From Verrucomicrobium sp. BvORR106 (GTDB lineage Bacteria; Verrucomicrobiota; Verrucomicrobiia; Verrucomicrobiales; Verrucomicrobiaceae), in NCBI RefSeq assembly GCF_000739655.1, contig NZ_BATR01000018.1:1-64000 (forward strand): 64,000 nucleotides of DNA, read 5' to 3'. The notes below the pieces were generated by a model that did no database searches, was not told the DNA's origin, and saw nothing but the letters and a program-made list of their open reading frames with translations. The position numbers were made by a program, and so were the translations under genes. This document shows, in pieces, positions 5,766 through 28,062 of the stretch (positions are counted from its first letter, which is position 1; every line of letters starts with the position of its first letter).

Positions 5766-6574
5766 TTGTCGCTGGAGTTGTACACGGCCGCAGGGGCCAC
5801 CGCAGGCGTGCCCTGATACTCTGCCACCAGTTGATTGAACGCGCTGCCCAGACAAAGCACATCCGCCCCCAGATTGAAGATGCGCCAGCCTTCCTCTTCA
5901 AGTTCACGTCGTGGGCCGATCATGCCGGGCATCATGAGGTGTTTCCCGTGTTTGCGCCCTGCGGCAGCCACCCGCTTCCGGGCCGCAACCACCTCCGGAT
6001 CATGGATCTGCCCGGCCTTTCCGATCAAGTGACTGAAGTCGCCCGGGCCAAAGAGCAGCACATCATAGCCTGGCACGGAGGCTATTTCCTCGACCTGAGC
6101 CAGCGCCTCAGGGGACTCGATCTGGAAAATGAGGATCTTCTCCGTATTGCTGTGGTGCAGATACTCCTTGATGGGCACCTGGCAAAAGCCGCCGTCGATA
6201 TTGCCACCGTCAATCGGCCGTCTGCCCAGGGGCTGGAAACGGGTCATTTCCACCAGCTTGCGGGCCTCCTCTGCTGTCGAGACATGCGGCACCATGATGG
6301 CGGTGGCATCCAACTCAAAGGCCTTCACATAGTCACTGTACGCCCCCTTGCTGACCCGTACGATGCTGTCGAGGTCATGCAGCCGGGCAGCCCGCACCTG
6401 ATGCTCCAGATTTGACCAGTCGTTGGGCACATGCTCATTGCAGATCCAGACACCGGACGCCCCGGAGAGTCCCGCCATCTCGATCACGCGGGGGTCATTG
6501 AGGTTGAGCTTCAGCGTGCACGGATTGGCACCGTTGCGGAGTTCCCGGAGGATGCGGCTGGGTCGGAGGGTCAT
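5762..6574 (-). CDS. HpcH/HpaI-family aldolase (second copy)
   Basis: A 270-residue aldolase-fold enzyme. Visible family motifs are ICNEHVPND near residue 45, TAIMVPHVSTAEEA, PLGRRPIDGGN, FQIESPEALAQVEEI (metal glutamate) and LLFGPGDFS (metal aspartate). The usual active-site stretch WxDxEH is replaced by WICNEHV, so substrate or chemistry may differ from the copy at 1788. It overlaps the downstream SDR start by ATGA and follows the Gfo/Idh/MocA pair by 27 bases, forming one leftward operon. It probably acts on a keto-acid from the same sugar pathway; the substrate is unknown. Confidence 0.9.
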   Translation of the reverse strand: MTLRPSRILRELRNGANPCTLKLNLNDPRVIEMAGLSGASGVWICNEHVPNDWSNLEHQVRAARLHDLDSIVRVSKGAYSDYVKAFELDATAIMVPHVSTAEEARKLVEMTRFQPLGRRPIDGGNIDGGFCQVPIKEYLHHSNTEKILIFQIESPEALAQVEEIASVPGYDVLLFGPGDFSHLIGKAGQIHDPEVVAARKRVAAAGRKHGKHLMMPGMIGPRRELEEEGWRIFNLGADVLCLGSAFNQLVAEYQGTPAVAPAAVYNSSDK

Positions 6575-6601
6575 GGGATGGCGGTATGAGGAGTCAAAAA
6601 T

Positions 6602-7564: not shown

Positions 7565-8559
7565 GAGGCTTGCGATAGGGTCACGGGCACGCCCTCGGAC
7601 ATCGATTGCAAGGCCGCCCGATTGAAGCGCAGGGTTTGCACGGCTTCTTCAAAGGTGCAGAGCGGAGAGGGCTGCCCCTCCATGCCATCCAGAAAGGCAT
7701 GCGCCTGCCGGATGAAAAGCTCATCCCGTTCCAATGGAGACACCGTGTACCAGGTCCACTCCGCCTCGCCCCGCCGGAGCACACCCCAACGCTGACGATG
7801 GCCCTCGATCGCGAGACTGCCCTCCGTCCCATGCAGGAGGATGAATGTCTCGTTGGGCGCCTGGAACTGGTTCATGGCATAACTCACCATGGCCATGCCG
7901 TGGCGGGCGGCCACGTTCACCGTGTCCTCCACCGTCACGCCCTCCAGCATCTGGTGGCCGCCATCGCAGTACACCTGCGTGCAGGGGCCGATGAGCCACT
8001 CCATGGCATTCACCAGATGGGTCAGCGCATCCTGCACCGCTCCACCGCCCTGATCATGCCGGGCATAATAGATCTCGCGATAGGCAGGCCGGAAGGTGGG
8101 AAAGTGCTGTCCGGCGGTCACCGTGGCATGCAGCACAGTGCCCAGTCCACCGGTAACGATGAAATCCCGAGCCGCCGCCACCCACGGCATGAGGTGGTAC
8201 ACATACGCCACGGCCACGTAGCGCGGATACTGCGCCAGAGCAGCGCGTGCCGCAGGCACTTCATCCAGATCCACCGCCAGCGGCTTCTCCACCAGCACGT
8301 GCAGACCACGCGCCAGCAGCACCTGCATCATGGGCAGGTGCAACGGTGCCGGGGTGCAGATCACGGCCGCATCCCACCCGCCAAGGGCCAGGGCTGCCTC
8401 CAGTGACGAATGACACGCCACCCCATAGCGCTGCTGCATCGCCTGGCGAAGCTCTTCGCGAGTCTCCACCGCCGCCACGGTGCAGCGCCCCGTGTGCTGG
8501 AAACAGCGCAGGTGCCGTTCCCCAATGCTGCCGCAGCCGATGATGAGTATGGATGGCAT
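7561..8559 (-). CDS. Gfo/Idh/MocA-family oxidoreductase
   Basis: 332 residues. The N-terminus ILIIGCGSIGERHLRCF is a textbook GxGxxG dinucleotide-binding motif, followed by VICTPAPLHLP and VEKPLA (the catalytic lysine region), and GGGAVQDALTHLVNAMEWL in the C-terminal domain with the conserved helix-borne His. It is expected to be an NAD(P)-dependent sugar or inositol-type dehydrogenase in the cytoplasm. It is the promoter-proximal gene of the leftward operon 4974-8559 and diverges from the sialidase-like genes. Substrate not identifiable. Confidence 0.92.
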   Translation of the reverse strand: MPSILIIGCGSIGERHLRCFQHTGRCTVAAVETREELRQAMQQRYGVACHSSLEAALALGGWDAAVICTPAPLHLPMMQVLLARGLHVLVEKPLAVDLDEVPAARAALAQYPRYVAVAYVYHLMPWVAAARDFIVTGGLGTVLHATVTAGQHFPTFRPAYREIYYARHDQGGGAVQDALTHLVNAMEWLIGPCTQVYCDGGHQMLEGVTVEDTVNVAARHGMAMVSYAMNQFQAPNETFILLHGTEGSLAIEGHRQRWGVLRRGEAEWTWYTVSPLERDELFIRQAHAFLDGMEGQPSPLCTFEEAVQTLRFNRAALQSMSEGVPVTLSQAS

Positions 8560-12640: not shown

Positions 12641-12765
12641 GCGGCAGCGACCGATATCGTCGCAAATAATTCCAGATTCTCGAAGTTGGGATCAAAATTT
12701 GATGCCGGGGCAGCGAAATTGATATCTAGTTGAGATAGCTTCCTCTTAGATTGGAAGTTCGACGC

Positions 12766-15138
12766 ATGAACTTCTGGCCATTCAAAAAAAAGAAAAAGCC
12801 TGCCCCGGCCCCCGCCCCCACGGACAGCCCGGCGAAATTGGATGAAGGCGGAGTCCAGTCTCCCGCTGCCAGCATCTCCCCTGCGGAAGTTGCCGAGCCT
12901 GAAAGCACACCCTCTGCGGCCAGCACCCCACCGCCGCTTCCTCCAGCCTCTGCACCAGTGGTAGCGGAAGCCTCTGGAGCCAACGCCGGGCCAACGGTCG
13001 AACCGCCAGCGACGACAACTGGAGAGGCGGCAGCCCCGGCCCCTGATGCACCCGCAGCCTCAGGGGAGACACCCTCGGTGGCTGAGACGTCGGCACCTGC
13101 TGAGGAAGCCAAAGCGACCGACGAACCTTCTTTGCTCCCCTCCCGGCCCGCATTCAAGCCGCCGATCCTGGCCCCGGAGCCCCCGAACTACACCCCCCCT
13201 CCGCTGCCACCGGTTTCCGTGGAGCCTCCCAAGTTCACTCCCCCACTGGCCCCCGATCCACCGAAGCCGCTCGTGCTTGAGAATGTGATCGCGCCGCCCC
13301 CCCTGCTTCCGGAGAATCTCGCGTCGCAACCCGAGAAGCTCCCGGCAAGCGAGCCAGCAGTGGAGAAAGAAGCCCCCGCCACATCAGCCGCAGACACCCC
13401 GAGCAGGACTGCGGCTCCGCTGCCCGCCTTCCCAGCGGTAGAAGAACCCGCCGCCAAAGCGGAGGGATCGGCGGTGCCAGAGGCAGCATCTCAAGCTCCC
13501 CTTCTCCCTGCACCGGAACCAGAGACTGCACCCGAGCCCGCGGCAACAGCCCAGTCTGAGCCTGAACCAGAACCGGTACCAAATCGGGAACCAGAACCCG
13601 CTTTCAAGGAAGACACAACTGTCAGCCCCACCTTCCGTACCACGGGGCATGTCGCAGGATTTATTCTTCATGGCGACGGGACCTGGTCGTTCGACGCCAC
13701 CCACGTGGCGTATCAACACCTGAATGCGGGTGATCCCCCGGTCATCCTGAGCATCCCGGTGCTGGCCACCCACGCCATGGCAGCGCATGGCCCCACCCAA
13801 CATCTGGTCATTTCCGTGCAGGGCACCGTCTCAGGCCCCATGATCGGGGCAGTGACCCAAGTCTTCACCTATGAAGGGGACCGCCGTGTCACTGGCCAGC
13901 TCGTGCCCCCAGACGGTGCCGCCGCCGGAGGGGCGCTCCAGTATGCCACCTCCGTGGACGTGCCCGGACTCATTCTGAATCACGACGGGAGTTATCTCCT
14001 TGATCCCACCGATGCTGCCTACCAGCATCTGCAGTCCGGTGAGCGCCAGGTGTACGCCATCCCGGTGACGGCGTTTACTGCCGATGGCCAGTCCGATCTT
14101 CGTGAGCTGGTGGTAGGAATCACTGGTCGGGAAGACGGGGCGGTGGCCGCGGGCATCGCCGCGCACGGCATTCCTCATGGCGGCTGTGTCCTGCATGATC
14201 GCATCCAGCAGGGGCCGGGCAGTCCCGCGCATCTCTCCTATCGCACTTCCAGCCTAGTCCCGGGTTTCGCTCTGCGGCCGGATGGCGTGTGGTCTTTTGA
14301 TTCTGCGCACCCCTTCTACACGGATGTGCATGAAGGGGCCGTGCGCATCATCACGGTACCCGTGGCTGCTGTCGATGACCATGGCAACGTGCATGACACG
14401 AAGGCTATCAGCATCACCCTGCATGGCACTGCAAGTCTGCCTTTGCTCAGCGCCATGGTCATGAGTGGCATGGAGGGCGGCTCATCCGTTCAGGGATCTC
14501 TGGGTGTTCATCCCGATGCTGCGGCGGGCCTTTTCCAGTTCTCCTACATTGGTGAGCTCCCCGCAGGCTTCCATCTGGGAGTGGATGGCACGTGGAGCTT
14601 CCACGCCAGCCCCGAACTCTACGCCCACCTCGACGCAGGCCACACCGAGGTGGTAGTGGCCCAGGTTCATGGAGAGGATGGTCAGGGGCACATCGAAGGC
14701 TCCATGGTGGCCATCACCGTGCATGGCACGGCCGGCGCCCCCTCCGTGGGAGCTGTCACCATCTCCACGCATCAAGCACTGCCGGAGTACGATGACTCCG
14801 CCGCCGATACCGGGACCCCAGATGCCGGGACAGACTCATTCGGCCTGCTTTTTGATGACACCCTGCCTCCCGGAGCCACTCAGGAGCCCGAAAGCTACGG
14901 AGATTTCCTCGGGGAAACAGAGCCTCAATCGTCAGAAAGTTCCGATGCCGCCACATCTTCAGGCGAGCCTTCCGAAGGCCTCTTGCTGGACCAGCCCGAA
15001 CCGTCGGCGGAAGAGCCCCAGTATGATCCCGCGGAGGTGCAGCAAGCGCTGCAAAGCCTGGGATACGGACATCTGGTGGATCCCGCCCCAGGAGCCAGTC
15101 CGTCAGAGGAAACAACACCCCCTCCTCCCCGTCCTTGA
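12766..15138 (+). CDS. VCBS-like repeat protein with Pro/Ala-rich N-terminal region
   Basis: 790 residues from the ATG at 12766 (a TTG lies five codons upstream). It starts MNFWPFKKKKKPAPAPAP with no signal peptide. Residues about 12-285 are a low-complexity Pro/Ala/Glu region. Four repeats of about 100 residues follow, near 289, 391, 490 and 590. Each carries a core like G-x-W-S-F-D-x-x-x-x-Y-x-H-L, as in VCBS/cadherin-like domains (for example DGTWSFDATHVAYQHL and DGVWSFDSAHPFYTDV). The acidic tail is rich in Ser, Pro and Glu. VCBS repeats are normally found in surface adhesins, so the lack of an export signal is odd. Function unknown. Confidence 0.75.
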   Translation: MNFWPFKKKKKPAPAPAPTDSPAKLDEGGVQSPAASISPAEVAEPESTPSAASTPPPLPPASAPVVAEASGANAGPTVEPPATTTGEAAAPAPDAPAASGETPSVAETSAPAEEAKATDEPSLLPSRPAFKPPILAPEPPNYTPPPLPPVSVEPPKFTPPLAPDPPKPLVLENVIAPPPLLPENLASQPEKLPASEPAVEKEAPATSAADTPSRTAAPLPAFPAVEEPAAKAEGSAVPEAASQAPLLPAPEPETAPEPAATAQSEPEPEPVPNREPEPAFKEDTTVSPTFRTTGHVAGFILHGDGTWSFDATHVAYQHLNAGDPPVILSIPVLATHAMAAHGPTQHLVISVQGTVSGPMIGAVTQVFTYEGDRRVTGQLVPPDGAAAGGALQYATSVDVPGLILNHDGSYLLDPTDAAYQHLQSGERQVYAIPVTAFTADGQSDLRELVVGITGREDGAVAAGIAAHGIPHGGCVLHDRIQQGPGSPAHLSYRTSSLVPGFALRPDGVWSFDSAHPFYTDVHEGAVRIITVPVAAVDDHGNVHDTKAISITLHGTASLPLLSAMVMSGMEGGSSVQGSLGVHPDAAAGLFQFSYIGELPAGFHLGVDGTWSFHASPELYAHLDAGHTEVVVAQVHGEDGQGHIEGSMVAITVHGTAGAPSVGAVTISTHQALPEYDDSAADTGTPDAGTDSFGLLFDDTLPPGATQEPESYGDFLGETEPQSSESSDAATSSGEPSEGLLLDQPEPSAEEPQYDPAEVQQALQSLGYGHLVDPAPGASPSEETTPPPPRP

Positions 15139-15203: not shown

Positions 15204-17828
15204 CTAACGTCTCCGACGACGGAAGCAACCCAACCCGCCCAGGAGGAGCAGCATGGCCCGACCGGGCTCCGGCACCGCGGCGACTGTGATGTAGCCACCA
15301 GTGAGGAAGCTGGACTCGTCAAAGGCATAGGCGCTGCCCAGCCCCGTGAAGCTGCTGTCGTAACTGAGTGAAACGCTGCGATCTCCGACCAAAGCGGTGA
15401 CTGCCGACCAATCCACCAGGTAGAACTTCGCGCCCACCGCAAAGGCCTGGGATCCCGCGAGGTTGGTGAGCGTGATATTCCCGAGATCACCCGAGAACGC
15501 TCCATTGAAACCAAGATAATCTGACGAGGCGGTGTCGAGCCCGCTGCTGCCGCTGGTGCTGAAGAGGTCCATGAGGATGGAACCTTCATTCACCAGAGTG
15601 GAACCAAAGACCAGTTGCTGCCCGGCTGCGCCATCGCCCACCTTCAGACTGACGCCCGAAGTGATCGTCACCGCTCCTGAGCCCAGGGCATTCACGTGAT
15701 TGGCCGTCAGCATGCCGCCAGAGACTCTGGTGCCACCGGTGTAGGTGTTGGCTCCGCTCAGTTTCAGGTTGCCAGTTCCCTGCTTGTCCAGGCCACCGGC
15801 GCCTGTGCCAGAGATGACATCATCAACGGCGGCGGTGAATCCATTGGTGTCAAACTTGGTCGCCGTGGTGGTGCTGAGCACCAGGGCCAGGTTGTCAGAA
15901 AAGTCCGCCAGGTTCGCGGAAAGTTTGACCGTCCCGCCGGCGAGGTTGATCCGCCCTTCCTCCACATTCTGCACAAACTTCTGCTGGGTCACCACCGTGC
16001 CGCCCGCACCCACGGTGATCTCACCCGCTACATTGCTGCTGGCGCTCACCACCCCGCGTCCCACCGCCACATCGCCCGTGCCTTGAAAGCGCAACTCGCC
16101 CGTCCCGGAGACGGAGACCAGGGATCCGGTGGAGCCGTCAAACCCAATCGATGCACTTGATCCTGTGTAGGTGAAAACGCCCCCAGTGATTGACAACCGG
16201 CCGTTGAAGCCACCATTACCCGTCACACTGAGAGCACCACTCTGGGCCCAAGTGCCTGCGGTCATGCTCAACAATGCGCCGCGCCCCAGGCTCAGAGAGC
16301 CCGCATTCGTCACCGCGGCCGCCGAACTCAGGGTAAGGCTGACGCTGGCGCCCGTCGCCACCGAGATGCTCTTGCCCGCGATGACGTCGATGGTCGCCCC
16401 GCTGGCGAAGCTCAAAGTCGAGGTCGTGCTCGCATTGAGCAGATAGCCGCCGGTTGCTGCACTTTGATCCCCTTTCACCGTCAGGGTACCACCGCTCACG
16501 GTAGTCAGCCCTGTGTAAGTGTTGGAACCTGAGATCGTCCAGTCGTTGTTGCCGATCTTGATCACGCTCGTCGTGCCGCTGCCGTTCACAATCGCTCCCT
16601 GGAACTCATTCAGCACACCAGTGGCACTGGTACCGCCCAGCGTCAGCGTCTTGGCACCCACTCCGGTTGCGGTGGAGTCCGCCGTGAACTTCAGCGCGCC
16701 CGCGCCGTTGGCCTCCACCGTCACCACCGATCCCGCCGTACCGCTGAGATTAAGGGTCCGGTTGGTGGAGTGTCCGCCCACCTCGGTGCCAGAATAACGC
16801 AGCGTCACCGCCACCGCCGCACTCCCGGCGTTGATGGTGGTCCCCTGCCCCAGGGCACTTGCCGTGCCAGAGTCCGCCACCGAGTTGAACTCAAGCGTCC
16901 CGGCATTCAGTGTGACAGTGCCGGAGAAGGTATTCACCCCTTTGAGCGACTTTACGGCTGCGCCTCCGAACGTGAAGTTGTCATTGCCATTGATCACTCC
17001 TTCCAGAACCAGATCCGCCGTGCTGGCATTGATCCCAAAGGTGATGGCGGTGCCGCTCGTGAAATTCCAGTTCCCGGTCAGTGTCAGGGTGCCTGTGCCG
17101 TTCTGGTTGAACGCATAGCTACTGCCGCCGTTGTTCCAGGTCCAACTGCGATTCGATGAGGCAGCTCCACCTGTATAGTTGAGCGACCCGAAACTGACCC
17201 CGTCGTTGACCGTGATGGAGGAACCCGCTCCCAGGGCGCTGGCCAACCCGGCATCTGCAATGGACGTGAAATTGCCGCCCCGCCGGTTGAAGGTCACACC
17301 GCCCGTGAAATCGTTGGCGTTGTTGTTGAGGTTCACCGTCCCGGTACCGCCGCCCAGGATGACCCCTGCGTTACCTGTGATCTTGGCGTCGATGTTCCAG
17401 ACACCCGTCGTCGAGGTGTTCCCGAAAGTGCGAGTGGCCCCGTTCAGATCCAGAATGAGCGAGTTCGCGATCGTGATGGTGGTATCCACCCCAGTGCCGC
17501 TGGCCTGTAGATTGCCATTAAGCGTGATGGTACGCGTACCGCCGCTGCCGGCGAGGGTCGCGCCAGTGCCGGCCGTGTCGATCTGGATGTTGATGCTGGT
17601 GGTGATGTCCGCATCGAAGAGCAGCGAGGCCGGAGGCGCTATCGTCGTGAAGGCTCCGTTGATGGAGCCCCCCGTCCAGTTGTTGACGTCATTGTAGATG
17701 CCATTTCCTGCAGCGCCGCTCCATTGGGCATGGGCAGTCTTCAATGAGCCAAACAGGGCGAAAGCAGAGAGGGCCAGCAGGCCGGCACGAAACACGGGGA
17801 CGGGGCGTAGTCGAAGGGGATGGGTCAT
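15204..17828 (-). CDS. PEP-CTERM protein with autotransporter-associated beta-strand repeats
   Basis: 874 residues from the ATG at 17828 (the frame opens 18 codons earlier). A signal peptide ends near LKTAHAQ. The body is a long beta-solenoid rich in Gly, Thr, Ser and Asn, with repeats such as LSGANTYTGGTRVSGGMLT and SGSNTYTGLTTVSGGTLT, the autotransporter-associated strand repeat. The C-terminus is a PEP-CTERM sorting signal: VPEPGRAM, a hydrophobic stretch LLLLGGLGCF, then RRRRR. Such proteins are processed by exosortase and displayed outside the cell; no exosortase gene is in this window. It lies just downstream of the Verru_Chthon cassette in the same direction and probably belongs with it. 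Confidence 0.9.
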   Translation of the reverse strand: MTHPLRLRPVPVFRAGLLALSAFALFGSLKTAHAQWSGAAGNGIYNDVNNWTGGSINGAFTTIAPPASLLFDADITTSINIQIDTAGTGATLAGSGGTRTITLNGNLQASGTGVDTTITIANSLILDLNGATRTFGNTSTTGVWNIDAKITGNAGVILGGGTGTVNLNNNANDFTGGVTFNRRGGNFTSIADAGLASALGAGSSITVNDGVSFGSLNYTGGAASSNRSWTWNNGGSSYAFNQNGTGTLTLTGNWNFTSGTAITFGINASTADLVLEGVINGNDNFTFGGAAVKSLKGVNTFSGTVTLNAGTLEFNSVADSGTASALGQGTTINAGSAAVAVTLRYSGTEVGGHSTNRTLNLSGTAGSVVTVEANGAGALKFTADSTATGVGAKTLTLGGTSATGVLNEFQGAIVNGSGTTSVIKIGNNDWTISGSNTYTGLTTVSGGTLTVKGDQSAATGGYLLNASTTSTLSFASGATIDVIAGKSISVATGASVSLTLSSAAAVTNAGSLSLGRGALLSMTAGTWAQSGALSVTGNGGFNGRLSITGGVFTYTGSSASIGFDGSTGSLVSVSGTGELRFQGTGDVAVGRGVVSASSNVAGEITVGAGGTVVTQQKFVQNVEEGRINLAGGTVKLSANLADFSDNLALVLSTTTATKFDTNGFTAAVDDVISGTGAGGLDKQGTGNLKLSGANTYTGGTRVSGGMLTANHVNALGSGAVTITSGVSLKVGDGAAGQQLVFGSTLVNEGSILMDLFSTSGSSGLDTASSDYLGFNGAFSGDLGNITLTNLAGSQAFAVGAKFYLVDWSAVTALVGDRSVSLSYDSSFTGLGSAYAFDESSFLTGGYITVAAVPEPGRAMLLLLGGLGCFRRRRR

Positions 17829-17921
17829 TGCGATTGATGGTTTGACTTGAGCTGACTTTCCTTGAACCCCATTCAGCCTCACACCTCTGCTCCACGGCGG
17901 TCGGGATTGCCAGCAGCGCCC

Positions 17922-18032: not shown

Positions 18033-18680
18033 TCAGTCCGGCCGGAGCATGCGCACGCTGCCGTTCACGGGGTCCACCATCAGGGTGATAAAGTTGGGCG
18101 GCAGGGCATCCCCCGCGAGGTCGGACTCGAGCGCCAGTGTCAGGCTCCAGTGACCGCTGCCGCCCAGATTGGTCGAGCCGTCCGGTTGAAATTGGAAGGT
18201 TGAAACCTTGAGCGCAGAGCCAGGCACGGCGCGGGCCAGTCTGAAATCCGGCGGTGGATCCGCCCCAGCCCCTGCGTTGTAGGTGGGGTTCAGCAGGGAG
18301 GACCACGAGGCCTCTGCGGTGCCGGTGGCGATGATCACGCCGTCTTCAAAGATGGTCATCGGCTGAAACGGGGAGCTTCCCACCCAAAGCTGGGCAGCCC
18401 GGTATCCCGCCGCGGAACCAGGCGCCTGCGCATCCGCACAGGAGAAGAAGCGCACTTCCACCGGATTGTTGAGCCGGATGGCGGTCATCCGCGCCAGGTT
18501 GATCTGGTTGGCGAGGTTGGAGGCTGCGGAGCCGAGGCGGTTGCTCTGGATAACCTGATTGGCCACCGGGGCCACCAGGCCCAGCAAGAGGGAGATGATC
18601 ACCATCACCATGAGCAGTTCCATCAAGGTGAAACCGCAAGGGCGGCGGGCAGAAGGGCGGGGGGTGCGAGAGAGGGGCAT
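18033..18680 (-). CDS. Verru_Chthon cassette protein D (prepilin-like)
   Basis: 215 residues from the ATG at 18680; an in-frame ATG at 18701 would overlap gene C by 19 bases and is the alternative. A short basic leader precedes the type IV prepilin cleavage motif G|FTLMELLMVMVIISLLLGLVAP: prepilin peptidase cuts after Gly, and the helix anchors the pseudopilin. The rest resembles GspH-type minor pseudopilins in size. It is the fourth gene of the A-B-C-D cassette that is characteristic of Verrucomicrobium and Chthoniobacter. The role of the cassette is unknown; type II secretion-like or pilus-like surface assembly is the natural inference. Confidence 0.88.
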   Translation of the reverse strand: MPLSRTPRPSARRPCGFTLMELLMVMVIISLLLGLVAPVANQVIQSNRLGSAASNLANQINLARMTAIRLNNPVEVRFFSCADAQAPGSAAGYRAAQLWVGSSPFQPMTIFEDGVIIATGTAEASWSSLLNPTYNAGAGADPPPDFRLARAVPGSALKVSTFQFQPDGSTNLGGSGHWSLTLALESDLAGDALPPNFITLMVDPVNGSVRMLRPD

Positions 18681-18682
18681 GA

Positions 18683-19780
18683 TCAGCGGGTGGTGCTCCA
18701 TTTGGCAGAGCGGATGGACACCGTGGTGGTGAAGACCTGGTGGTCCAGCTTCAGCGAGGACAGACGTGCGGTGAGGGCCAGCAGGTCGGCTTCGTATTTA
18801 GTTGCTTCCTTAAACCAAGCCGCATTCACGAGCTCCGCCGTGGAGCCGCCTTCCCTCTCGTAGCGGGATGCGGAAGCCTCGTCCAGAGCCACCATGGTCA
18901 CCTGCACGGTGGGAGGGAGCTGGTGCCGGGAAAGGGAAGCAACTGGGGACGCTGGATCAGAGAGGAAACGACGGGAGTCGTAGGAATAGTCCGGTGCGAT
19001 GTCGTAATCCTTTGCGCTGCTGGTGCCCGAGGGCACGGGACTGCGGGGACTGAACACCAGGGCGATGATGTTCTCGGCCAGGGGGCGGCTTTGCAACAAA
19101 GCCGGTGTGACACCGGTGTCCCGCACCAGTTCTGGATGGTTGTACCACGCTGTGGTGGCAGCTATAGGAGCCGTGTTCATGCCCTTGAATCCGGAGGGTG
19201 CCCCGCCAGGCGGCGCGTACACCTGGAACCGCTCGGTGGGCTGGCGGAACTCCATCAACCGGCAGCGACGCCGTGCATTGAGCCGGGTGCCCAGGAATGA
19301 TGGCTTCGTGCCCAGTACGGTGTCTTCCTCAAAGCTCAGGTAGAATCCCCAGGAATTAAGGCTGCTGTTGAGTTCACGGTAGGCATGGTCGTCAGCAACT
19401 CCCATCGGAGCCTGAAAAAAGACCGCATGCCCCAGCTTGGGTCCCAGGCCGGACTGGTTGAGCAGCGTGGCTGAGGGACCGCAGATAAAATGAAGCTCCG
19501 ACTGGCGCACATACCGGGTGGGGGCGTTGGGGTCGTTGTAGTCCCAGTAGGTGTTGAGAGTGGCCTGACTGAGCCGGCGGGTGATGGACTCAAACGCCAC
19601 CCGGGCTTCCCGGAACTGCTCCACCCGGGACTGCGCCCCCGTGTACACCCGCTGCGTCACGGCCAGGGTGTTGACCAGCAGGGTCATGATGAGGCTCAAC
19701 ACCGTGACGCTGAGCAGCACCTCCACCAGGGTGAAGGCGGCCCTGCGGAAACTGAAGGGAGAGGGTGACACTGGGTTCAT
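18683..19780 (-). CDS. Verru_Chthon cassette protein C (prepilin-like)
   Basis: 365 residues. After a 14-residue leader the prepilin motif reads RRA|AFTLVEVLLSVTVLSLIMTLLVNTLAV, with the conserved Glu at +5 of the mature helix. Ala rather than Gly precedes the cleavage point. Length and position between B and D fit cassette protein C. The C-terminal part is soluble and contains a YEREGGSTAELVNAAWF segment. It starts nine bases after the end of gene B and its end abuts gene D, so it is part of one transcript. It is presumably a minor pseudopilin analogous to GspJ. Confidence 0.88.
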   Translation of the reverse strand: MNPVSPSPFSFRRAAFTLVEVLLSVTVLSLIMTLLVNTLAVTQRVYTGAQSRVEQFREARVAFESITRRLSQATLNTYWDYNDPNAPTRYVRQSELHFICGPSATLLNQSGLGPKLGHAVFFQAPMGVADDHAYRELNSSLNSWGFYLSFEEDTVLGTKPSFLGTRLNARRRCRLMEFRQPTERFQVYAPPGGAPSGFKGMNTAPIAATTAWYNHPELVRDTGVTPALLQSRPLAENIIALVFSPRSPVPSGTSSAKDYDIAPDYSYDSRRFLSDPASPVASLSRHQLPPTVQVTMVALDEASASRYEREGGSTAELVNAAWFKEATKYEADLLALTARLSSLKLDHQVFTTTVSIRSAKWSTTR

Positions 19781-19789
19781 GGCAACTAC

Positions 19790-20389
19790 TTACCGGCTGG
19801 TCTTGGCCGCCAGCGTGCACACCTGGCGGTGTTTGCGGGCATTGGTGAAACGGTCTGCACTGGTCGCTGGCTGGTCGGTGATGCAAATGCGCACCTGCCG
19901 GAGGTAGTCGCTGGGAGCCGCCGTCGCGGCAGGCAGCGCGGGAGGGGTGTTGGACACGGCGATCCGGGCCGTGAAAACCGTCCAGTCTGGAGCGGCACCA
20001 CCGGTGGCGTGCAGCTCGTTCCCCTGAGCGTCGAAGTAGCACAGACTCCCGTCATAGCTGGCGAGATTGGCCGTGTCCGACCAGTCACTGCCCTGGAGCT
20101 TGGCCAGCACCTCCTGGGCAATGCGGGACTCCACAGTGTCATTGACGGAGTTGCGCAGCATCTCCATGCCGCCGGGCATGGTGGAGACCACGGACAACAC
20201 GCCAAAGGACACGATGGCCATGGCGAGGGTCACTTCCACCAGGCTGAAGCCCCTACCGCTTCGCGGAGACACAAGACTCAAGTCTTGAGGACGGAGGCGT
20301 TTGGCCATCAAGGGGAACAGCCGCGCGCCCGACCGGCGATTGGCAACCTGATCAACAGCGGCATGAGGGAGGGGGGCAATGGGGTTCAT
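19790..20389 (-). CDS. Verru_Chthon cassette protein B (prepilin-like)
   Basis: 199 residues. The ATG at 20389 overlaps the stop of gene A (ATGA at 20386-20389), which supports this start even though it gives a long 47-residue leader; an internal ATG at 20308 would give a shorter one. The cleavage motif is SGRG|FSLVEVTLAMAIVSFGVLSVVS, a type IV pilin N-terminal helix with Glu5. It lies between cassette genes A and C. The soluble domain is small. Probably a GspI-like minor pseudopilin of the cassette; the substrate is unknown. Confidence 0.88.
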   Translation of the reverse strand: MNPIAPLPHAAVDQVANRRSGARLFPLMAKRLRPQDLSLVSPRSGRGFSLVEVTLAMAIVSFGVLSVVSTMPGGMEMLRNSVNDTVESRIAQEVLAKLQGSDWSDTANLASYDGSLCYFDAQGNELHATGGAAPDWTVFTARIAVSNTPPALPAATAAPSDYLRQVRICITDQPATSADRFTNARKHRQVCTLAAKTSR

Positions 20390-23300
20390 GGAGAGAACTG
20401 GCGACGTTGGATGATGCGGTACTGGTAGTATTGATCGAGAGTCTCCTCGTTGTCCGCGGTGCCATTGGCGTTGAGGTCGTTGGGCGAAGCGAAGTCCGGC
20501 AGCTCCGGATCGTTCGGATCCACATAGCGCTCGATCAGGCAGGAGCCGCGATACTCGCTGCCCACGAGGTCGAGATCTTCATCCCACTCCGCAGGGTTTC
20601 CGGCGCGGCTCTTCTTGAGCGACTGGACGCGCAGATGGATGTTGTAGGTGTTCGACCGTGTAGTGAGGCGCGGGTAGAGCTGGTTGTAGGGAGCTTCACG
20701 CAAGTTGTCCCCAGTGAGGCGATGAGTCCCCCACCAAGTCTCCATGGTACTGTAGCTGGCAGCCGGGTAGGAGGGAGGTCCGGCATTCGTCCTGGGCACG
20801 AGGGCGATGGCGCAGATCTCCGTCGCAGAGCGGAAGATGTCTCCAGACGCGAACCGGTTCTCGAACCCCTTGAGAGTGCCGTTGAGGTGATCGGGATCGA
20901 TCTCCAGCCGGTAGTTCGCTGCGTAAGTGGTGCCAGTTTGGGATTTGTAGTTGGCCACCTCTGTATCCGGAATGGCCGTCATGCTGGTACCCTTGAGCAG
21001 GGCATGCAGGGCGGTGCGGCGTTTCACATGCCGGAAGGGCATGATCTCATAGTTCATGTTGATCTTGCCGGCCGTGGAGAAGGGCTCGCTGATGGCATAG
21101 GGCTCCACAATGGGCATCCAGAAGAGGTCCAGCCACAGATGATCCTGCGGGAAGCGCAGACCATAGTGCTGGGTGCCTGCCGCAGGCTGTGGGGTGAAGA
21201 GCAACGTCTGCCAGGGTTCCGGCTTGCCGGCGGTCTTGCCATTCACCCCGGTGGGCAGGGAGCCGAACATCACCGCAGAGGCAATCTGCCGGTTGGGCGA
21301 GTACGTGATGTTGTCCGTCTCCGCGGCCTGACTGCCATTGGCCCCGTCTGCAAAACTTGCCACGTATCCGAGCGAAAGCCCCCGGCTGAAGTAGCCGCGA
21401 TTCGTGGCCCCTTCGTCCGCCTTGTTCACATAGGGTCCGTCCTCCTGGAGGTCATAGCCCGTGTCCCAGTCCCCCGGGGCGTCATATTGGTTCTTTGCCC
21501 CGTTGAGAGAGACCGGCACAAAGGGCACGGCCGACTCCGGATAGGCCAGCCCTTCCACCAGGCGGCCGCCCGTTTCCGCGTTCTTGAAATTCTGGGTCCA
21601 GTCCTTGCGGAACTGGCCGCGTGTGGGATCGAACCCTACGCGCAGGCTCGCTCCGTTGTAGCTGGGATGCGGCGCATAGTAGTCCTTGTCCGCCGCATCC
21701 ACCGTGGAGCGCATGGCCACCAGCCGCATGTCGCCGCGGGCCTTGTCACCCGGATTGACTGTTATTCCATAAACCGTGTCTCCCGGGTACACGAGGTTGT
21801 TCATGAGGATCTGCGCCGTGTTCACCCGGGCCGTACCCGCAGGCAGGCTGGCATTGAACCGTTCCCGGTAGTTCAGGGTGAGCAGCTTCGCATTGTCAGG
21901 ATCCGGCACCTTCCCGGCGTCGTTCACCGCCCCCACCCGCTTCGGCACCGGCAGGGTCTGGTTGGGGAAATGAATCTTGAGTGTCTGGATGTTCGTCCCA
22001 TCCAGCAGATTCACCTTCACCGTGGCCGTGCCTCCCGCGAATGAGAAGGTGGTTTTTCCCGCCACATTGACATCCCCCACTGAGGCCCACACATCGAACT
22101 GGTGATTCCCCGTGCCTGCACTGATGAGGTCGCCGCCGAAGCCAGACCGATACTTGAAGAACTGGCCCGCCGGGGATGGCAGGGCGGTCTTGTTCGCCAG
22201 CCAGGAGTCCGCGGTGTAGTAGCCCTCGTTGAAGTTGACGTTCAGCAGGCCCGTGTTGCCCGTCACATCAGACATCTGCAACGAGGCATCATCCGCCTTG
22301 AACCCTTTGATGTCCGAGACCTGGAGCTGATACTTCTGATTGAAGGCGGACTGGCCGGGACTGATGCAGTAAGGCTGAATGACCAACCGCGCTCTCATCG
22401 CGAGCGTTTTGATATCGCTGCTATTTGTGCTGTCCACCCGGGTGGGGTAGAAGATGAGGGCGGCCTGGGCGACGGTGAAGAAGCGCCCCATGCCGGCGGT
22501 GTTGTTGATCTTGATGGGGGCGATCACCCCAAAGTCGTAGTAGTACGGAGAATAAGAGTAGTGAGGCACCAGGTTCTTCTGCGGGGTGGAGATGGCGTTC
22601 ACCAGGCTCCTCGTGTAATCGAAGCACTCCGTCAGGATCTGGTCGCGATCATTGGGATACTTGGCATTGAAGGATCCGCCGAAGCCGGGGATCTCACGAT
22701 CAGTCAGTCGTTGGAGGTAGCTGTACAGCACCTGATTACGCGGCACCTGGGCCCAGTCGGCGGTGGCACTGGCAGAGCTAGGGCTGGAGGGGTTGGCGGC
22801 CACCAGATGGGTGACCTGCTTCCGCTGGAAGGCATAGGAATAACCGGTGGCCTGATCTGCGGGATAGGTGGCGGGCAGTGCCTTGTCCCTGCCCAGGCTC
22901 GTGCAGAAGGCGATGAGCTTGTCATACGCATTGCGGGCGGTCGTGCTCCCGGCGGACTGGACGGTCTGCAGGGGCCAGAGGCTGATGCGGGGCGTGTTGA
23001 AGAGGGTGACCTCCGGTGCCCGGCTCTGGGCGGTGAGGAAGAACTGGGTCTTGGCCAGCACCTCGGGGTTCAAGCGCGCGCTGCTGACCTCCCGCCGCCC
23101 ATTGGCAAGCGCAGCATTCTTGAAGAAGTACTCATCCACCGTGGCATAGAGGCGGTCCTGATCCTTGGTGATAACCATCGCGCCGGTGGGCGTGCGTGAG
23201 CCATCCAGCGAGCCGCCGGTGGCAACGCGCGGGGCGAGATCGTAGTAGAGGCCATACTGGGAGGTTCCGTCCGTGGTATTGCCAGTGGTCGAGCCACCTC

Positions 23301-24204
23301 CTGATGTGAAGTACTTTCCAAGAACCACGCTGAGGCTGGTGGTCGCCGGATGGCCGGGGTAGCGCTGGAATTCGTTCCGCGCCGGCAGATAGTTGCCCAG
23401 ACGGCGCTCCGCCACGGTGTTGGCCCGTGGAATATCCCAGAACACACCTTCACTCGCGGTGTTGATGTTGACCTTGGAGGACTCATCATCTGTCCAGAAC
23501 GCCATCCGTCCCACCACGGGATTGTCAGCACTGGCTCCCGTGACCGTTACTTTGGCATCCGAGCCCGCTACGGCTGTCGCAGCTGCCACCGTTCCATCAC
23601 GGAGCAGGTAGAGCCACTTCACCGGCATGACGGGCTCACTGCCCCCGGTGCCTGGAGCGTTGACCACCTCGTAACCCTCCACCTCCCCCACTGCGGGAGG
23701 CTCAAGGACCGGGTAGTGCTTGCGCCCCTGCACCTCCACCGGCTCATTCAGGTCGGTGTACAGGGCACGCTGCGCGGACCAGTTGGCAGGCGGCACCTCT
23801 GCGTTGGCCTCGGATGCGCCAAAGGTAGCGACACGCATCTGGTCCGATGAGTAGAGCTTGTAGGCGGCGCTCAATGGGGTGCGTCCATTGGCGGCACCGC
23901 CAGTGCTGCCATACACCCGGATCATGCCAGGCTGGGAGGCCCAGGTTTTAGGGTTGGCCGGATCGGTGTTCAGCGTCTCCGTAGCCTGCCGGATCTGACC
24001 AATGACCAGATTGATCGCCGAGTCCGAGAGCATGCGGGAACGATTGCCCTCCGCATAACCTGACGACGCCTGGCGCTCCGTGGTGACCAGCGAGAGGAAA
24101 CCCACCACCAGCACCGTGATGAGCACCAGCACCATCAACACCATGATCAACGCGATCCCTCGGCGGGACGCTTTTTTCCAGGGGGCAGGGCATGATGGCT
24201 GCAC
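20386..24204 (-). CDS. Verru_Chthon cassette protein A (large GspK-like protein)
   Basis: 1272 residues, starting at a GTG; no earlier in-frame ATG fits. A basic stretch (WKKASRRG) precedes IALIMVLMVLVLITVLVVGFLSLV, a prepilin-like helix of the kind seen in GspK, where the Glu at +5 is missing. A further GspK-like feature is the MAFWTDDESSKVNINTASEG segment (residues about 230-250). The rest is a very large extracytoplasmic region without recognisable enzyme motifs. It is the first gene of the cassette and is coupled to B by ATGA. In type II secretion GspK caps the pseudopilus tip; by analogy this protein may cap a B/C/D pseudopilus. Confidence 0.9.
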   Translation of the reverse strand: MQPSCPAPWKKASRRGIALIMVLMVLVLITVLVVGFLSLVTTERQASSGYAEGNRSRMLSDSAINLVIGQIRQATETLNTDPANPKTWASQPGMIRVYGSTGGAANGRTPLSAAYKLYSSDQMRVATFGASEANAEVPPANWSAQRALYTDLNEPVEVQGRKHYPVLEPPAVGEVEGYEVVNAPGTGGSEPVMPVKWLYLLRDGTVAAATAVAGSDAKVTVTGASADNPVVGRMAFWTDDESSKVNINTASEGVFWDIPRANTVAERRLGNYLPARNEFQRYPGHPATTSLSVVLGKYFTSGGGSTTGNTTDGTSQYGLYYDLAPRVATGGSLDGSRTPTGAMVITKDQDRLYATVDEYFFKNAALANGRREVSSARLNPEVLAKTQFFLTAQSRAPEVTLFNTPRISLWPLQTVQSAGSTTARNAYDKLIAFCTSLGRDKALPATYPADQATGYSYAFQRKQVTHLVAANPSSPSSASATADWAQVPRNQVLYSYLQRLTDREIPGFGGSFNAKYPNDRDQILTECFDYTRSLVNAISTPQKNLVPHYSYSPYYYDFGVIAPIKINNTAGMGRFFTVAQAALIFYPTRVDSTNSSDIKTLAMRARLVIQPYCISPGQSAFNQKYQLQVSDIKGFKADDASLQMSDVTGNTGLLNVNFNEGYYTADSWLANKTALPSPAGQFFKYRSGFGGDLISAGTGNHQFDVWASVGDVNVAGKTTFSFAGGTATVKVNLLDGTNIQTLKIHFPNQTLPVPKRVGAVNDAGKVPDPDNAKLLTLNYRERFNASLPAGTARVNTAQILMNNLVYPGDTVYGITVNPGDKARGDMRLVAMRSTVDAADKDYYAPHPSYNGASLRVGFDPTRGQFRKDWTQNFKNAETGGRLVEGLAYPESAVPFVPVSLNGAKNQYDAPGDWDTGYDLQEDGPYVNKADEGATNRGYFSRGLSLGYVASFADGANGSQAAETDNITYSPNRQIASAVMFGSLPTGVNGKTAGKPEPWQTLLFTPQPAAGTQHYGLRFPQDHLWLDLFWMPIVEPYAISEPFSTAGKINMNYEIMPFRHVKRRTALHALLKGTSMTAIPDTEVANYKSQTGTTYAANYRLEIDPDHLNGTLKGFENRFASGDIFRSATEICAIALVPRTNAGPPSYPAASYSTMETWWGTHRLTGDNLREAPYNQLYPRLTTRSNTYNIHLRVQSLKKSRAGNPAEWDEDLDLVGSEYRGSCLIERYVDPNDPELPDFASPNDLNANGTADNEETLDQYYQYRIIQRRQFSP

Positions 24205-24241: not shown

Positions 24242-25186
24242 TTATTCTCGGGACGCGATGTAGCGAGAATTCGCCACAGAGGATGGCGCTCCCGCCTGCG
24301 GGGGCGGCCCTACGACCGCTGCCGCAGCCCGCAACCGGTAAACCCTGACATAGTCCACCATCATGCTCTCCGGCAGCTTTGAGCGATCCAGACGGGGAGC
24401 TTCCCAATCGGCGCAGAGCAGACTCAGGATGGCATACTGGGGCTGCCGGGAGACTCCCGCGCGGGTGCGGAAGACTTCATGCTCATCAATGAAGAAAACA
24501 TACTCGTCCGGCGTCCACTCCACGGCATACACGTGAAAGTCATCGCTGAGACTGCGGCCGTCCTTCAGCACGGGCGCCAGATCCAGCGGGCCGCCATCGT
24601 GCAGGTGCTGCCCGGTCTCCCCAGGCCAGTACAGGTTCGAAGCTGCGCCGCCATCTTTGCGCCCCGCGCCGAACCATTCAATGATGTCAATCTCCGCCCC
24701 GGTGAGGTGTTGGTTATTTCCAGCATCCATTTCGCGGCGCTCCGGCTGCAACCAGAAGGCGCCGTGATGCCCCTCCATGGCGTGGAACTTGATCCGGGCC
24801 TCCCAGCGTCCATACGTCTGGGAGAACTTGCCTTGGGACCCAATCATGCCCGTGTGAATGACCCCGTCCTTCTCGGTCGTGGTGAGCAGCAGATGGCCGG
24901 CACCATCCAGGGAGACATTCTCCGCACTGATCATGGCGCTCTCCCTCAGACCGGGGGCACGCACGGCCCACTTCGTAGCATCCAGCACCTGGCCGTCGAA
25001 TTCATCCTGCCAGACCAGCGTCCAGGGTGACACAGGATCTATCGGCTGCGCATTCTCTGCCTCTTGCTCACGAAGAGACAGACCAGCGACACTGACCAGT
25101 AACACGCCGCCGAGAGCCCAGCCCCATCCGGCGACCAGCATGTTCCGTTTTGATTCATGAATAGGCTGACAGACAACTGAAGACAT
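24242..25186 (-). CDS. GH16 family glycoside hydrolase (beta-glucanase/laminarinase-like)
   Basis: 314 residues from the ATG at 25186, which is preceded by GGAG at Shine-Dalgarno spacing; the TTG at 25195 is rejected. A membrane-anchoring or signal helix (MLVAGWGWALGGVLLVSVAGLS) is followed by LVWQDEFDGQVLDATKW, the GH16 entry motif. The catalytic EIDIIE lies at residues 165-170, with Glu165 the expected nucleophile and Glu170 the acid/base, next to TYGRWEARIKF and GAFWLQP. The family hydrolyses beta-1,3, beta-1,4 or galactan linkages, such as laminarin, outside the cytoplasm. It lies 37 bases upstream of the Verru_Chthon cassette and diverges from the two-component system. A palindrome sits at its 3' end and another upstream. 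Confidence 0.92.
   Translation of the reverse strand: MSSVVCQPIHESKRNMLVAGWGWALGGVLLVSVAGLSLREQEAENAQPIDPVSPWTLVWQDEFDGQVLDATKWAVRAPGLRESAMISAENVSLDGAGHLLLTTTEKDGVIHTGMIGSQGKFSQTYGRWEARIKFHAMEGHHGAFWLQPERREMDAGNNQHLTGAEIDIIEWFGAGRKDGGAASNLYWPGETGQHLHDGGPLDLAPVLKDGRSLSDDFHVYAVEWTPDEYVFFIDEHEVFRTRAGVSRQPQYAILSLLCADWEAPRLDRSKLPESMMVDYVRVYRLRAAAAVVGPPPQAGAPSSVANSRYIASRE
24259..24278. promoter_or_regulatory. 20-bp palindrome 55 bases upstream of cassette gene A
   Basis: TGTAGCGA-GAAT-TCGCcACA, one mismatch from a perfect dyad. It falls inside the last codons of the GH16 gene (encoding the VANSRYIAS segment) and 55 bases upstream of the GTG of cassette gene A. It is a variant of the palindromes at 17922 and 25223. 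If functional it would control the cassette; its position inside a coding end would be compatible with an operator. Confidence 0.4.
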
Positions 25187-25222
25187 CGTCTCCAAGCGTA
25201 GGGTATAGGGACGGTCACGTCT

Positions 25223-25242
25223 TGTGACGAGAACTCGCTACA
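25223..25242. promoter_or_regulatory. 20-bp palindrome in the GH16 / histidine kinase divergent region
   Basis: TGTgaCGA-GAAC-TCGCTACA lies 37 bases upstream of the GH16 start codon and about 40 bases upstream of the kinase start. It is the third copy of the motif seen at 17922 and 24259. The gap 25187-25280 must also hold both promoters; no clear -35/-10 boxes were assigned. Confidence 0.4.
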
Positions 25243-25280
25243 GGGCCACACGAGGGGTGACGGCTGGCAACGCCTGTGTC

Positions 25281-27404
25281 ATGATGCTCCACATCACCGT
25301 GATGCGTCGTCTCCCGTTTGCCGTCCGCTTTTCCCGCATTCGCCGGGGTATGGCGATCTGTCTGGCCATTGGTCTCGTCGGTCTGCCGATGTGCCTGTCT
25401 GGCGCCAAAGTAACGCTCCGGGCGATGGAGGCATCGACGAGCACCAGTCCCGCTCAACTGTCCAAATCAGTGGATGGCATCGAGGCAGGACTGGAAGGCT
25501 GGGCGGTGCCGGGGCAGACCGACCGCGTGCACTCCGCCGTCTTTGCCTGCGATACCGTTCAGCCAGCCGGGCGGTTGCGCATCTGGCTCTCTTTTCTCTC
25601 CGGGCATACGGACTCGGCTTTTCGTGCCTTCAGCCTTTCGATCACGCGTGATGCCACACCTTCCCTTTCCGGGAGATGGGAGAAGGTGGCCCCCACATGG
25701 TACAACTCCACAGAAGGGGAGATCATCCGCGATGACGGCCGGCTCCAGGTGACCGGGGTGCTGCAAACCCCGGTGTATCTTGTGGAAACACCACTCATCC
25801 CGCCGGGAGTCACCGGACTGCGGCTGGACGTGTACCCCGGCCAGGGCGTGGCTGGAGAAGCGTTACTCACGGAGATCCGCGCCGAGCGCAAGGAGGTCAG
25901 CACCACCAACATCGCCCTGGGGTGCCCCGTCATTTCATCGCACCCATTGGGATCGGGACAGCGTCCGGAGCACCTCGTTGACGGGCTCTCCGGCACCATG
26001 GCACACCCGCCCGCCCCGGACCTGGGAGATGCCTTCTACTTCCAGCTCGACCTGCGCCGTGTGGCCAGACTGGACCACATCTGCCTGCGGAACCGGGCGG
26101 ATGGACGCGCAACGGAGCGGCTTTCCAAAGTCCTCCTCCAGCTCTATGACCGGTCCCCCGAGCCCGGGGTGGAGCCGGTATGGACGGCCCTGCATCGTGC
26201 AGATGGTTCATACCCCGAACCCGGGCAGACGGATGTGGTGCGGGCCGTCTCGGGCAAAGGGGAGTTCCGCGGTCGCTATCTTCGCCTCTCCAGCCAGAGC
26301 CCGGTCGCCTTCTCTCCGCAGCTGGCCGAGGTGGAAGTCTATGAATCCCTCGTCTCTCCCGGCGTGGATGTCACCGCCGGCAATGATAAACTGCCGCCTG
26401 GAAGTTCATTCGACATTCCAGCGGGAGCCCCATGGCTCAGCTTCGTCATCAATAACCCGACATTGCCAGGAAACCTGATTCTGGGCCGACGCTGGCGCAT
26501 TGCCGGGGTGAGCAACGAATGGCTGCCGGTGCCGAACTCGGGCGTGGTCGAGTCCCGCGCTCTGCCACCGGGCAAGTACCTCTTCCAAGCGAGCCTGCGG
26601 CACACGGATCTGGAGTGGAATGACATTGAACTTTCCGTGCCTCTCATGGTGCCACTGCCTTTGTGGCAACGGCCGCTGGTGCGAGTCCTGGCGCTGCTGC
26701 TGTGCGTGGCATTGGCCAGTCTCGTGGCATGGCGCATCGCGCGCCGGCGCATGGCGATGAAGGTGGCCGAGCTGGAGCAGCGGCAGGAGCTGGACAACGA
26801 GCGCGCCCGCATCGCCCGCGACATGCATGATGTGGTGGGATCACGCCTCACCCAGCTCATGGTCATGCATGAGATCTTCGCCGCGGAGCATCCCCTGCCA
26901 GGAGATGCGGGTCAGAAACTGCAGCAACTGGGCGACACCGCCCGGGCCGCCATCTCTGAGCTGGATGAAGCCGTATGGGCGGTGAATCCGCGCAACGACA
27001 CGCTGCCCAGCCTCGCCAACTATCTGTGCCACATCGCCAGTGAATACCTGGCCCCTCTGGGCATCACCTTCCGGCAGGATGTCCCAGCCGAGTGGCCGGA
27101 GGTGCCTGTGGCCTCTCACCACCGCCATGAACTTTTGCTCGCCTTCAAGGAGGCCCTGCAGAATGTCGCCAAGCATGCCCAGGCTTCGCAGGTGACCATC
27201 ATCCTCCGCTACCATGAGCCCGACTTCCAGGTGCGCCTGGAAGACAACGGCCGAGGTTTGCCAGAGATGCAGACCGGGGCCGGGAAGGACGGCCTCCAGA
27301 ACATGACGTCCCGCCTCGCCGCCATCGGCGGCAATTGCCGCGTGCAATCCCGCCCGGAGGGAGGCACCATGGTGACGCTGCAAGTGCCCCTCCACCACCC
27401 CTGA
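25281..27404 (+). CDS. Sensor histidine kinase (HisKA_3/NarL type) with discoidin-like sensor
   Basis: 707 residues from the ATG at 25281; the start is uncertain, since a GTG at 25224 and ATGs at 25302 and 25350 are also in frame. An N-terminal hydrophobic helix leads to an extracytoplasmic region. It includes an F5/8 type C (discoidin)-like carbohydrate-binding segment (TNIALGCPVISSHPLGSG to FSPQLAEVEVYE) and a Y_Y_Y-like beta domain before the second membrane helix (PLVRVLALLLCVALASLVAW). The dimerisation domain carries ERARIARDMHDVVGSRL, with phospho-acceptor His516. The HATPase domain shows EALQNVAKHAQA and DNGRGLP. It probably senses glycan or cell-wall material and phosphorylates the regulator encoded 16 bases downstream. 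Confidence 0.92.
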   Translation: MMLHITVMRRLPFAVRFSRIRRGMAICLAIGLVGLPMCLSGAKVTLRAMEASTSTSPAQLSKSVDGIEAGLEGWAVPGQTDRVHSAVFACDTVQPAGRLRIWLSFLSGHTDSAFRAFSLSITRDATPSLSGRWEKVAPTWYNSTEGEIIRDDGRLQVTGVLQTPVYLVETPLIPPGVTGLRLDVYPGQGVAGEALLTEIRAERKEVSTTNIALGCPVISSHPLGSGQRPEHLVDGLSGTMAHPPAPDLGDAFYFQLDLRRVARLDHICLRNRADGRATERLSKVLLQLYDRSPEPGVEPVWTALHRADGSYPEPGQTDVVRAVSGKGEFRGRYLRLSSQSPVAFSPQLAEVEVYESLVSPGVDVTAGNDKLPPGSSFDIPAGAPWLSFVINNPTLPGNLILGRRWRIAGVSNEWLPVPNSGVVESRALPPGKYLFQASLRHTDLEWNDIELSVPLMVPLPLWQRPLVRVLALLLCVALASLVAWRIARRRMAMKVAELEQRQELDNERARIARDMHDVVGSRLTQLMVMHEIFAAEHPLPGDAGQKLQQLGDTARAAISELDEAVWAVNPRNDTLPSLANYLCHIASEYLAPLGITFRQDVPAEWPEVPVASHHRHELLLAFKEALQNVAKHAQASQVTIILRYHEPDFQVRLEDNGRGLPEMQTGAGKDGLQNMTSRLAAIGGNCRVQSRPEGGTMVTLQVPLHHP

Positions 27405-27420: not shown

Positions 27421-28062
27421 ATGCCTGTGCGCATTGCCATGATCGAAGATGACCTGCCGTTTGCCCAGACGCTGCAGCGCTACTTCAGCCTGGGCTCTGA
27501 GGTCCGCTGTGAGGCCCACTACACCACCGGAGAGGCCGCCCTCCAGCAGTTGCCGGAGCTGACTCCAGATCTGGTGCTGGTGGATATCAACCTGCCCCAC
27601 ATGAGCGGCATCGAGTTTGTCTCCCGGATCAAGGAGACAACCCCTGGCCTGCTCTGCCTCATGCTCACCATGTATGAAGAGAGCCCGCTCATCTTCGATG
27701 CCCTGAAGGCCGGGGCCTGCGGTTATCTCCTGAAGCGCACGCCTCCGCGGGAGATCGTGGCCGGCATCGTGCAGGCCCAGGCCGGAGGCTCGCCCATGTC
27801 TCCCCAGGTGGCGCGTCAGGTCGTCAGCTTCTTCCACCGCGGCACGGAAGCCACAGCGGCGGTCGATCCGGAGATGGACGTGCTGGCAGACCGCGAACGC
27901 GAGGTCCTGGCCCTGCTTTCCAAAGGCTTCCTCTACAAGGAGATCGCCGACCAACTCGGCATCTCCACCCACACCGTGAACAGCCACCTCCGGCGGATCT
28001 ACGAGAAGCTGCACGTACGCTCCCGCGCCCAGGCCGTGGCGAAGTATCGCGGGCTGACGTGA
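27421..28062 (+). CDS. NarL/FixJ-type response regulator
   Basis: 213 residues. The receiver domain shows the acidic pair D10-D11, the phospho-acceptor Asp55 in LVDINLP, the conserved Thr in LMLTMYEES and the Lys in GYLLKRTP. The C-terminal LuxR-type helix-turn-helix reads LADREREVLALLSKGFLYKEIADQLGIS-THTVNSHLRRIYEKLHVRSRAQA. It lies 16 bases after the kinase and is its obvious partner. As a dimeric LuxR-type DNA-binding protein it is the best candidate in the window to recognise the 20-bp palindromes upstream of the GH16, Verru_Chthon and PEP-CTERM genes; that link is inference. Confidence 0.93.
   Translation: MPVRIAMIEDDLPFAQTLQRYFSLGSEVRCEAHYTTGEAALQQLPELTPDLVLVDINLPHMSGIEFVSRIKETTPGLLCLMLTMYEESPLIFDALKAGACGYLLKRTPPREIVAGIVQAQAGGSPMSPQVARQVVSFFHRGTEATAAVDPEMDVLADREREVLALLSKGFLYKEIADQLGISTHTVNSHLRRIYEKLHVRSRAQAVAKYRGLT

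Follow-up and report, generated by a model that had tools for sequence, protein, structure and literature searches.

A Verru_Chthon gene cassette in Verrucomicrobium resembles a type II secretion pseudopilus tip and may serve a neighbouring PEP-CTERM solenoid

How type II secretion systems (T2SS) choose their cargo is, to our knowledge, still an open question. Three described systems are the closest points of comparison for the locus reported here (papers given by PMC number were used in excerpt). The T2SS tip, GspH-I-J-K (XcpU-V-W-X; PDB 3CI0, 5VTM, 6UTU, 9A1F), consists of four prepilin-type proteins of which the large one lacks Glu5, and it has been described as critical for substrate recognition (PMC6211770). 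In Myxococcus xanthus, one machine serves several minor-pilin clusters that each have a large partner, and PilY1 has been likened to T2SS substrates (PMC7541494). Finally, PEP-CTERM proteins, first met in Verrucomicrobium spinosum (PMC1569441), end in a sorting signal, and a C-terminal signal of similar build is found in species that mostly have a T2SS (PMC3237569).

We analysed a window of 64,000 nucleotides from Verrucomicrobium sp. BvORR106. On its minus strand, positions 18033-24204 encode side by side all four proteins of the Verru_Chthon set, A to D, each above its NCBIfam cut-off, which makes the locus a member of this cassette family (Table 1). Transcription runs from the GH16 gene through A, B, C and D to the solenoid. 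The spacing is tight: 37 nt separate the end of the GH16 gene from the A frame, the listed frames of A and B share 4 nt, 9 nt lie between B and C, C and D overlap by 19 nt, and 150 nt lie between D and the start of the solenoid frame. B probably starts later than listed, and D may start slightly later. An earlier note, made from the letters alone, had described four tightly coupled, leftward pseudopilin-type genes flanked by a beta-solenoid PEP-CTERM protein and a GH16 enzyme, and the profile matches and gene packing bear this out. It did not mention the kinase and regulator pair that diverges from the GH16 gene. Neither the gene map nor NCBIfam and Pfam searches revealed core secretion genes around the window cassette, and a promoter and terminator scan gave nothing useful. 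At 12751-15138, convergent with the solenoid gene, lies a gene for a 795-aa proline-rich protein with VCBS repeats; it also stands beside the cassette in Verrucomicrobium sp. BvORR034 and was not found in the other cassette loci that we fetched.

Table 1. Coordinates of the cassette and its neighbours in the window
Feature	Position	Strand	Basis
Verru_Chthon A, giant GspK-like minor pseudopilin (predicted), 1272 aa	20386..24204	-	TIGR02600 1395 bits (cut-off 332.3); predicted GspK-type fold
Verru_Chthon B, GspI/PilV-like prepilin, 199 aa as listed	19790..20389	-	TIGR02598 112 bits (cut-off 51.4)
Verru_Chthon C, GspJ-like minor pseudopilin (predicted), 365 aa	18683..19780	-	TIGR02599 361 bits (cut-off 256.5); predicted GspJ-type fold
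Verru_Chthon D, GspH-like minor pseudopilin (predicted), 222 aa	18033..18701	-	TIGR02596 231 bits (cut-off 70); Pfam GspH PF12019
PATR-repeat beta-solenoid with PEP-CTERM tail, 892 aa as listed, proposed cargo	15204..17882	-	TIGR02601, PEP_CTERM, PF12951
GH16 enzyme, co-directional neighbour, not a conserved part	24242..25195	-	PF00722, 1.5e-19
Sensor histidine kinase, conserved partner	25224..27404	+	Pfam HisKA_3/HATPase_c; weak Y_Y_Y and F5/8-C-like sensor part
NarL-type response regulator, conserved partner	27421..28062	+	NCBIfam/Pfam profiles; C. flavus relative

The cassette had been called a known gene set of no assigned function. This is right insofar as the NCBIfam names are silent on function, but predicted folds allow a further reading. 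The literature that we searched contained no mention of "Verru_Chthon", and searches of Verrucomicrobi literature for PEP-CTERM with pseudopilin, beta-strand repeat, type II secretion or GspK returned nothing on a link between cassette and solenoid. From the consecutive TIGR numbers 02595-02601, one might guess that curators met these families together. To the NCBIfam entries we add a reading as a pseudopilus tip and a conserved regulator pair.

Labelling A as GspK-like had been a reasonable choice. The GspK model scores 31.1 bits over residues 15-91 of A, below its 130-bit equivalog cut-off, and a profile alignment with small GspK proteins covers 62 N-terminal columns only (E 8e-8). A begins with G/IALIMVL, without Glu5, and in this resembles the small GspK genes of its own genome (G/SALLVVL). 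We examined 130 A proteins and recognised the motif in 121, all of which have a residue other than Glu or Asp at +5. Support for the label came from a structure model of residues 73-1272 (pLDDT 81.5, pTM 0.89). Its best rows are three GspK-type T2SS chains, 3ci0_K (Z 8.1, 227 of 280 residues, rmsd 3.6), 9a1f_T (Z 8.0) and 6utu_F (Z 7.9), aligned over 195-227 residues, with the next row at Z 3.5; by its own note, the comparison tool treats a Z of about 8 as borderline, and we assigned 9a1f and 6utu chains to GspJ or GspK by title, length and consistency with 3ci0. With Foldseek alone, the GspK match of this model was not significant (rank 7, E 4.0), and a sequence search of solved structures with A gave unrelated matches only. 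Since the aligned residues are spread from end to end of the 1200-residue model, A looks like a giant GspK with large insertions, 1272 aa against the 280 residues of chain K in 3CI0. Lower rows (Z 2-3.5) suggest a beta-sandwich at about model residues 500-760 (A 572-832), and the conservation profile places the least conserved stretch of A at about 620-960. Two other A genes are unusual in build: one genome has a single 2964-aa open frame with two consecutive A matches (G101:C298:22170-30098), and in our own genome an A gene (G000:C43:73093-77753) matches in two frames (1-161 and 174-1296), a frameshift or an assembly error.

B, C and D all start with prepilin motifs. Using a pattern that required E, D or Q, we recognised the motif in 95 of 107 B, 100 of 105 C and 102 of 102 D proteins, and every one has Glu at +5. 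The structure model of C (pLDDT 85) reaches Z 9.4-10.6 against GspJ-type chains of the T2SS and against the pilin TTHA1219, the next unrelated row being at 4.6; C thus has the predicted fold of the minor pseudopilin GspJ. A sequence search of solved structures with C found weak pilin N-termini only. D passes the Pfam GspH cut-off (PF12019; 23.8 bits, cut-off 21) and falls short of the curated GspH model (38.1 bits against 80). B scores 28.8 bits with PilV and 20.5 with GspI (cut-off 44.35), both below cut-off, and may be either GspI-like or PilV-like.

Since C has a GspJ-type predicted fold and A both lacks Glu5 and has a GspK-type one, A-D resembles the GspK-I-J-H pseudopilus tip, and we consider it highly probable that the set is a minor-pseudopilin tip of this kind. 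Unlike the T2SS genes, the cassette operon carries no core genes, and there are about 20 sets per genome. Order-wide, A is matched in 97 of 112 genomes (73 above the A cut-off), and the tip reading would give a structural identity to families of this spread. Machines that could carry such a tip are encoded in the same genome on contigs other than the window's, each with its own small GspK: one T2SS-like locus (C73) has GspE, F, G, small K and M matches, and another (C200) has GspE, small K, D, F and G matches with further pilin-like genes. The genome also has six long PilB/GspE-type and six PilT-like matches, the latter read as PilT by length and score. All 12 genomes examined have, in addition to A, GspD-like and small GspK-like matches, which all stay below the curated cut-offs.

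In an alternative reading, A-D forms the tip of a type IV pilus-like fibre that displays the solenoid as a PilY1-like adhesin and does not secrete it. M. xanthus offers a precedent, with three clusters of PilY1 and four minor pilins on one machine and a PilX without Glu5 (PMC7541494, in excerpt); T4P-type ATPases are present here, B is slightly closer to PilV than to GspI, and C also matches the pilin TTHA1219. The A model, however, has GspK-type T2SS chains as its best rows, and the solenoid has no PilY1-type match, PATR being its sole Pfam match at E up to 0.01. Compared with the M. xanthus clusters as given in the excerpted paper, the likeness lies in several clusters with large partners and a top pilin without Glu5, but here the partner is a PATR/PEP-CTERM solenoid, the folds point to T2SS, and the clusters are far more numerous. 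We regard a pilus tip as unlikely and return to the pseudopilus tip.

Does the tip go with the solenoid? The earlier note had proposed checking for a constant link across cassettes genome-wide. The genome has about 20 A loci, some 13 near the family model and some seven compact and divergent, the latter mostly in the order D-B-C-A. A solenoid or PEP-CTERM gene adjoins 16 of 21 cassettes; a rough null assuming 100 such genes among 6000-8000 gives p <1e-19. Such genes make up 17 of 39 adjacent genes against 2 of 133 other genes of the same loci (p 5e-11), and a PEP-CTERM end lies at most 500 bases from 8 of 22 cassettes, where 0.18 would be expected. These own-genome counts leave out L063 and L069, whose genes are the same as in other loci, and L077-L079, whose cassette genes are distant or partial; L079 has an uncounted PEP-CTERM gene nearby. 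In BvORR034, 6 of 8 cassettes are linked (eight loci counted apart), and one of two sets hand-picked from the order-wide A match list gave 7 of 13. Beyond the family the association fades: 9 of 64 cassettes in other genera are linked (near-copies or overlapping loci L146, L147, L185, L194 and L200 dropped), with 9 of 113 adjacent genes against 21 of 527 others (p 0.08), and the second hand-picked set gave 0 of 19. Gene calls, PEP-CTERM pattern and PATR profile were home-made, and since the profile was built from our own genome and may miss far solenoids, the fall in distant genomes may be overstated. A constant link is rejected by the earlier note's own rule, under which cassettes without the association would refute it; a lineage-specific link is not refuted. 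Cassettes differ in gene order; of 41 linked genes, 35 point the same way as their cassette, and since near-copies are among them the 41 are not independent.

The solenoid itself has three TIGR02601/PATR stretches and a PEP_CTERM match of 19.7 bits (cut-off 16). With its motif, hydrophobic stretch and basic tail, and with three exosortase matches in the genome, it resembles substrates of the PEP-CTERM/exosortase and GlyGly-CTERM/rhombosortase sorting systems (PMC1569441, PMC3237569); unlike here, the excerpts of those papers describe no dedicated export apparatus beside the cargo. PATR frames number more than 30 in this genome, one of them 7778 codons long, PEP-CTERM matches number 72, and many of the solenoids stand without an adjoining cassette. 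Across the 112 genomes, 93 have an exosortase match. With classes assigned by hand from the A and exosortase match lists, and a clear A defined as E below 1e-10, exosortase is present in 64 and absent from 11 of 75 clear-A genomes, against 29 and 8 of the others (p 0.42). We therefore reject a dependence of the cassette on exosortase. Since cassettes occur without solenoid and without exosortase, their basic role cannot be PEP-CTERM export.

That such cassettes are common favours a second alternative, in which A-D is a general priming complex for a pseudopilus or pilus that makes no choice of cargo, and the solenoid link stems from common regulation or from having been duplicated together. A FastTree phylogeny of 130 A proteins requires 22 changes of the linked state, where shuffling gives a mean of 34; linkage is thus inherited in part, with many gains or losses along the tree. 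Moreover, in some genomes the set lies among genes read as housekeeping; in four loci of another family of the order (L223, L225, L226 and L240), the set, here with an A of 1530-1600 aa, has constant neighbours and no solenoid; by eye these neighbours look aroA-like and in part like cytochrome or iron-sulphur oxidoreductases. Yet some 20 priming sets per genome would be redundant, the link is kept across differing gene orders, and A varies most in its middle stretch. We hold a mere priming role to be rather improbable. Instead we favour a tip with a cargo, which in this genus is the best reading of what had been called a surface machine that handles or exports the solenoid (16 of 21 linked; A and C tip-like), although the inconstant link and the 11 of 75 genomes without exosortase forbid extending it to all cassettes.

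Which neighbours belong to the unit became apparent from a related locus. The window A groups with the A of BvORR034 (97%) and of Chthoniobacter flavus Ellin428 (61%, best segment), a member of another class, Spartobacteria. In C. flavus the genes run all one way in the order kinase, regulator, solenoid, A, B, C, D. The kinases are 49% identical over 669 aa and the regulators 67% over 212 aa, and what the solenoids share is mostly their repeats and their tail. The C. flavus locus yielded no GH16 relative. Since this locus, despite its rearrangement, keeps kinase, regulator, solenoid and A-D without GH16, the conserved unit is the regulator pair, the solenoid and A-D, with GH16 a local addition; kinase and regulator are better conserved with the window cassette than GH16 is. 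Further relatives of the kinase or the regulator were met close to cassettes in L061, L137, L151, L127 and L189.

We propose that A-B-C-D is a GspK-I-J-H-type tip complex, encoded apart from its secretion core and assembled by one of the few T2SS-type machines encoded elsewhere in the genome, and that in this family its dedicated cargo is the adjoining PATR/PEP-CTERM solenoid. A would cap the tip with its hundreds of extra residues, including the poorly conserved stretch with the beta-sandwich. The solenoid would cross the inner membrane by a signal peptide and be held by its PEP-CTERM tail, exosortase would process it, A would engage it, and it would be driven across the outer membrane to reach the surface. 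The two-component system encoded divergently may switch the set on. The export proposal combines the shared-machine clusters of M. xanthus, the substrate role of the T2SS tip and the PEP-CTERM literature. For the export step itself we see about even odds, and we give the whole scheme a probability of roughly 0.48. If cassette and solenoid are natural tip-cargo pairs, their number per genome would make cargo choice by the T2SS testable by swapping. A more far-reaching version, in which up to about 20 interchangeable tips share a few T2SS-type machines and the variable insert of each giant GspK recognises its own cargo, is possible but doubtful; if true, Verrucomicrobiota would carry in their genomes a natural code that sets the specificity of type II secretion.

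The earlier suggestion that a beta-glucan is captured, and with it a part for GH16, found no support. GH16 is present in the 97% identical BvORR034 locus, but the other two of the genome's three GH16 genes lie on a contig where no cassette was found (C141), and this, with the C. flavus locus, led us to reject GH16 as a conserved part. We scanned the window GH16 and 94 of 115 eligible genes near cassettes in other loci, finding GH130 four times, LacI four times, GH2 twice and AXE1 twice (the long L140 solenoid was excluded by hand, which lowers the PATR count of the near genes by one); 120 of 279 genes farther away, scanned as controls, also include GH43, GH28, GH39 and GH3, and the carbohydrate signal around cassettes in other genera is weak. 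A surface fibre that captures polysaccharide for GH16 to cut, for which one could cite the adjoining GH16 gene, these near genes and an Akkermansia mucin-use locus that includes a pilin-like protein (PMC13174399, in excerpt), is thus very improbable, given the control genes and the lack of GH16 conservation.

Two A genes stand without adjoining B, C and D, each adjacent to a solenoid (L074 10567-13947 and L062 16791-19898), so A and cargo may pair without the full set. The compact, divergent loci (L070-L076), a second cassette type mostly in the order D-B-C-A with an A of about 900-1360 aa, adjoin in two cases PEP-CTERM proteins as small as 286-290 aa.
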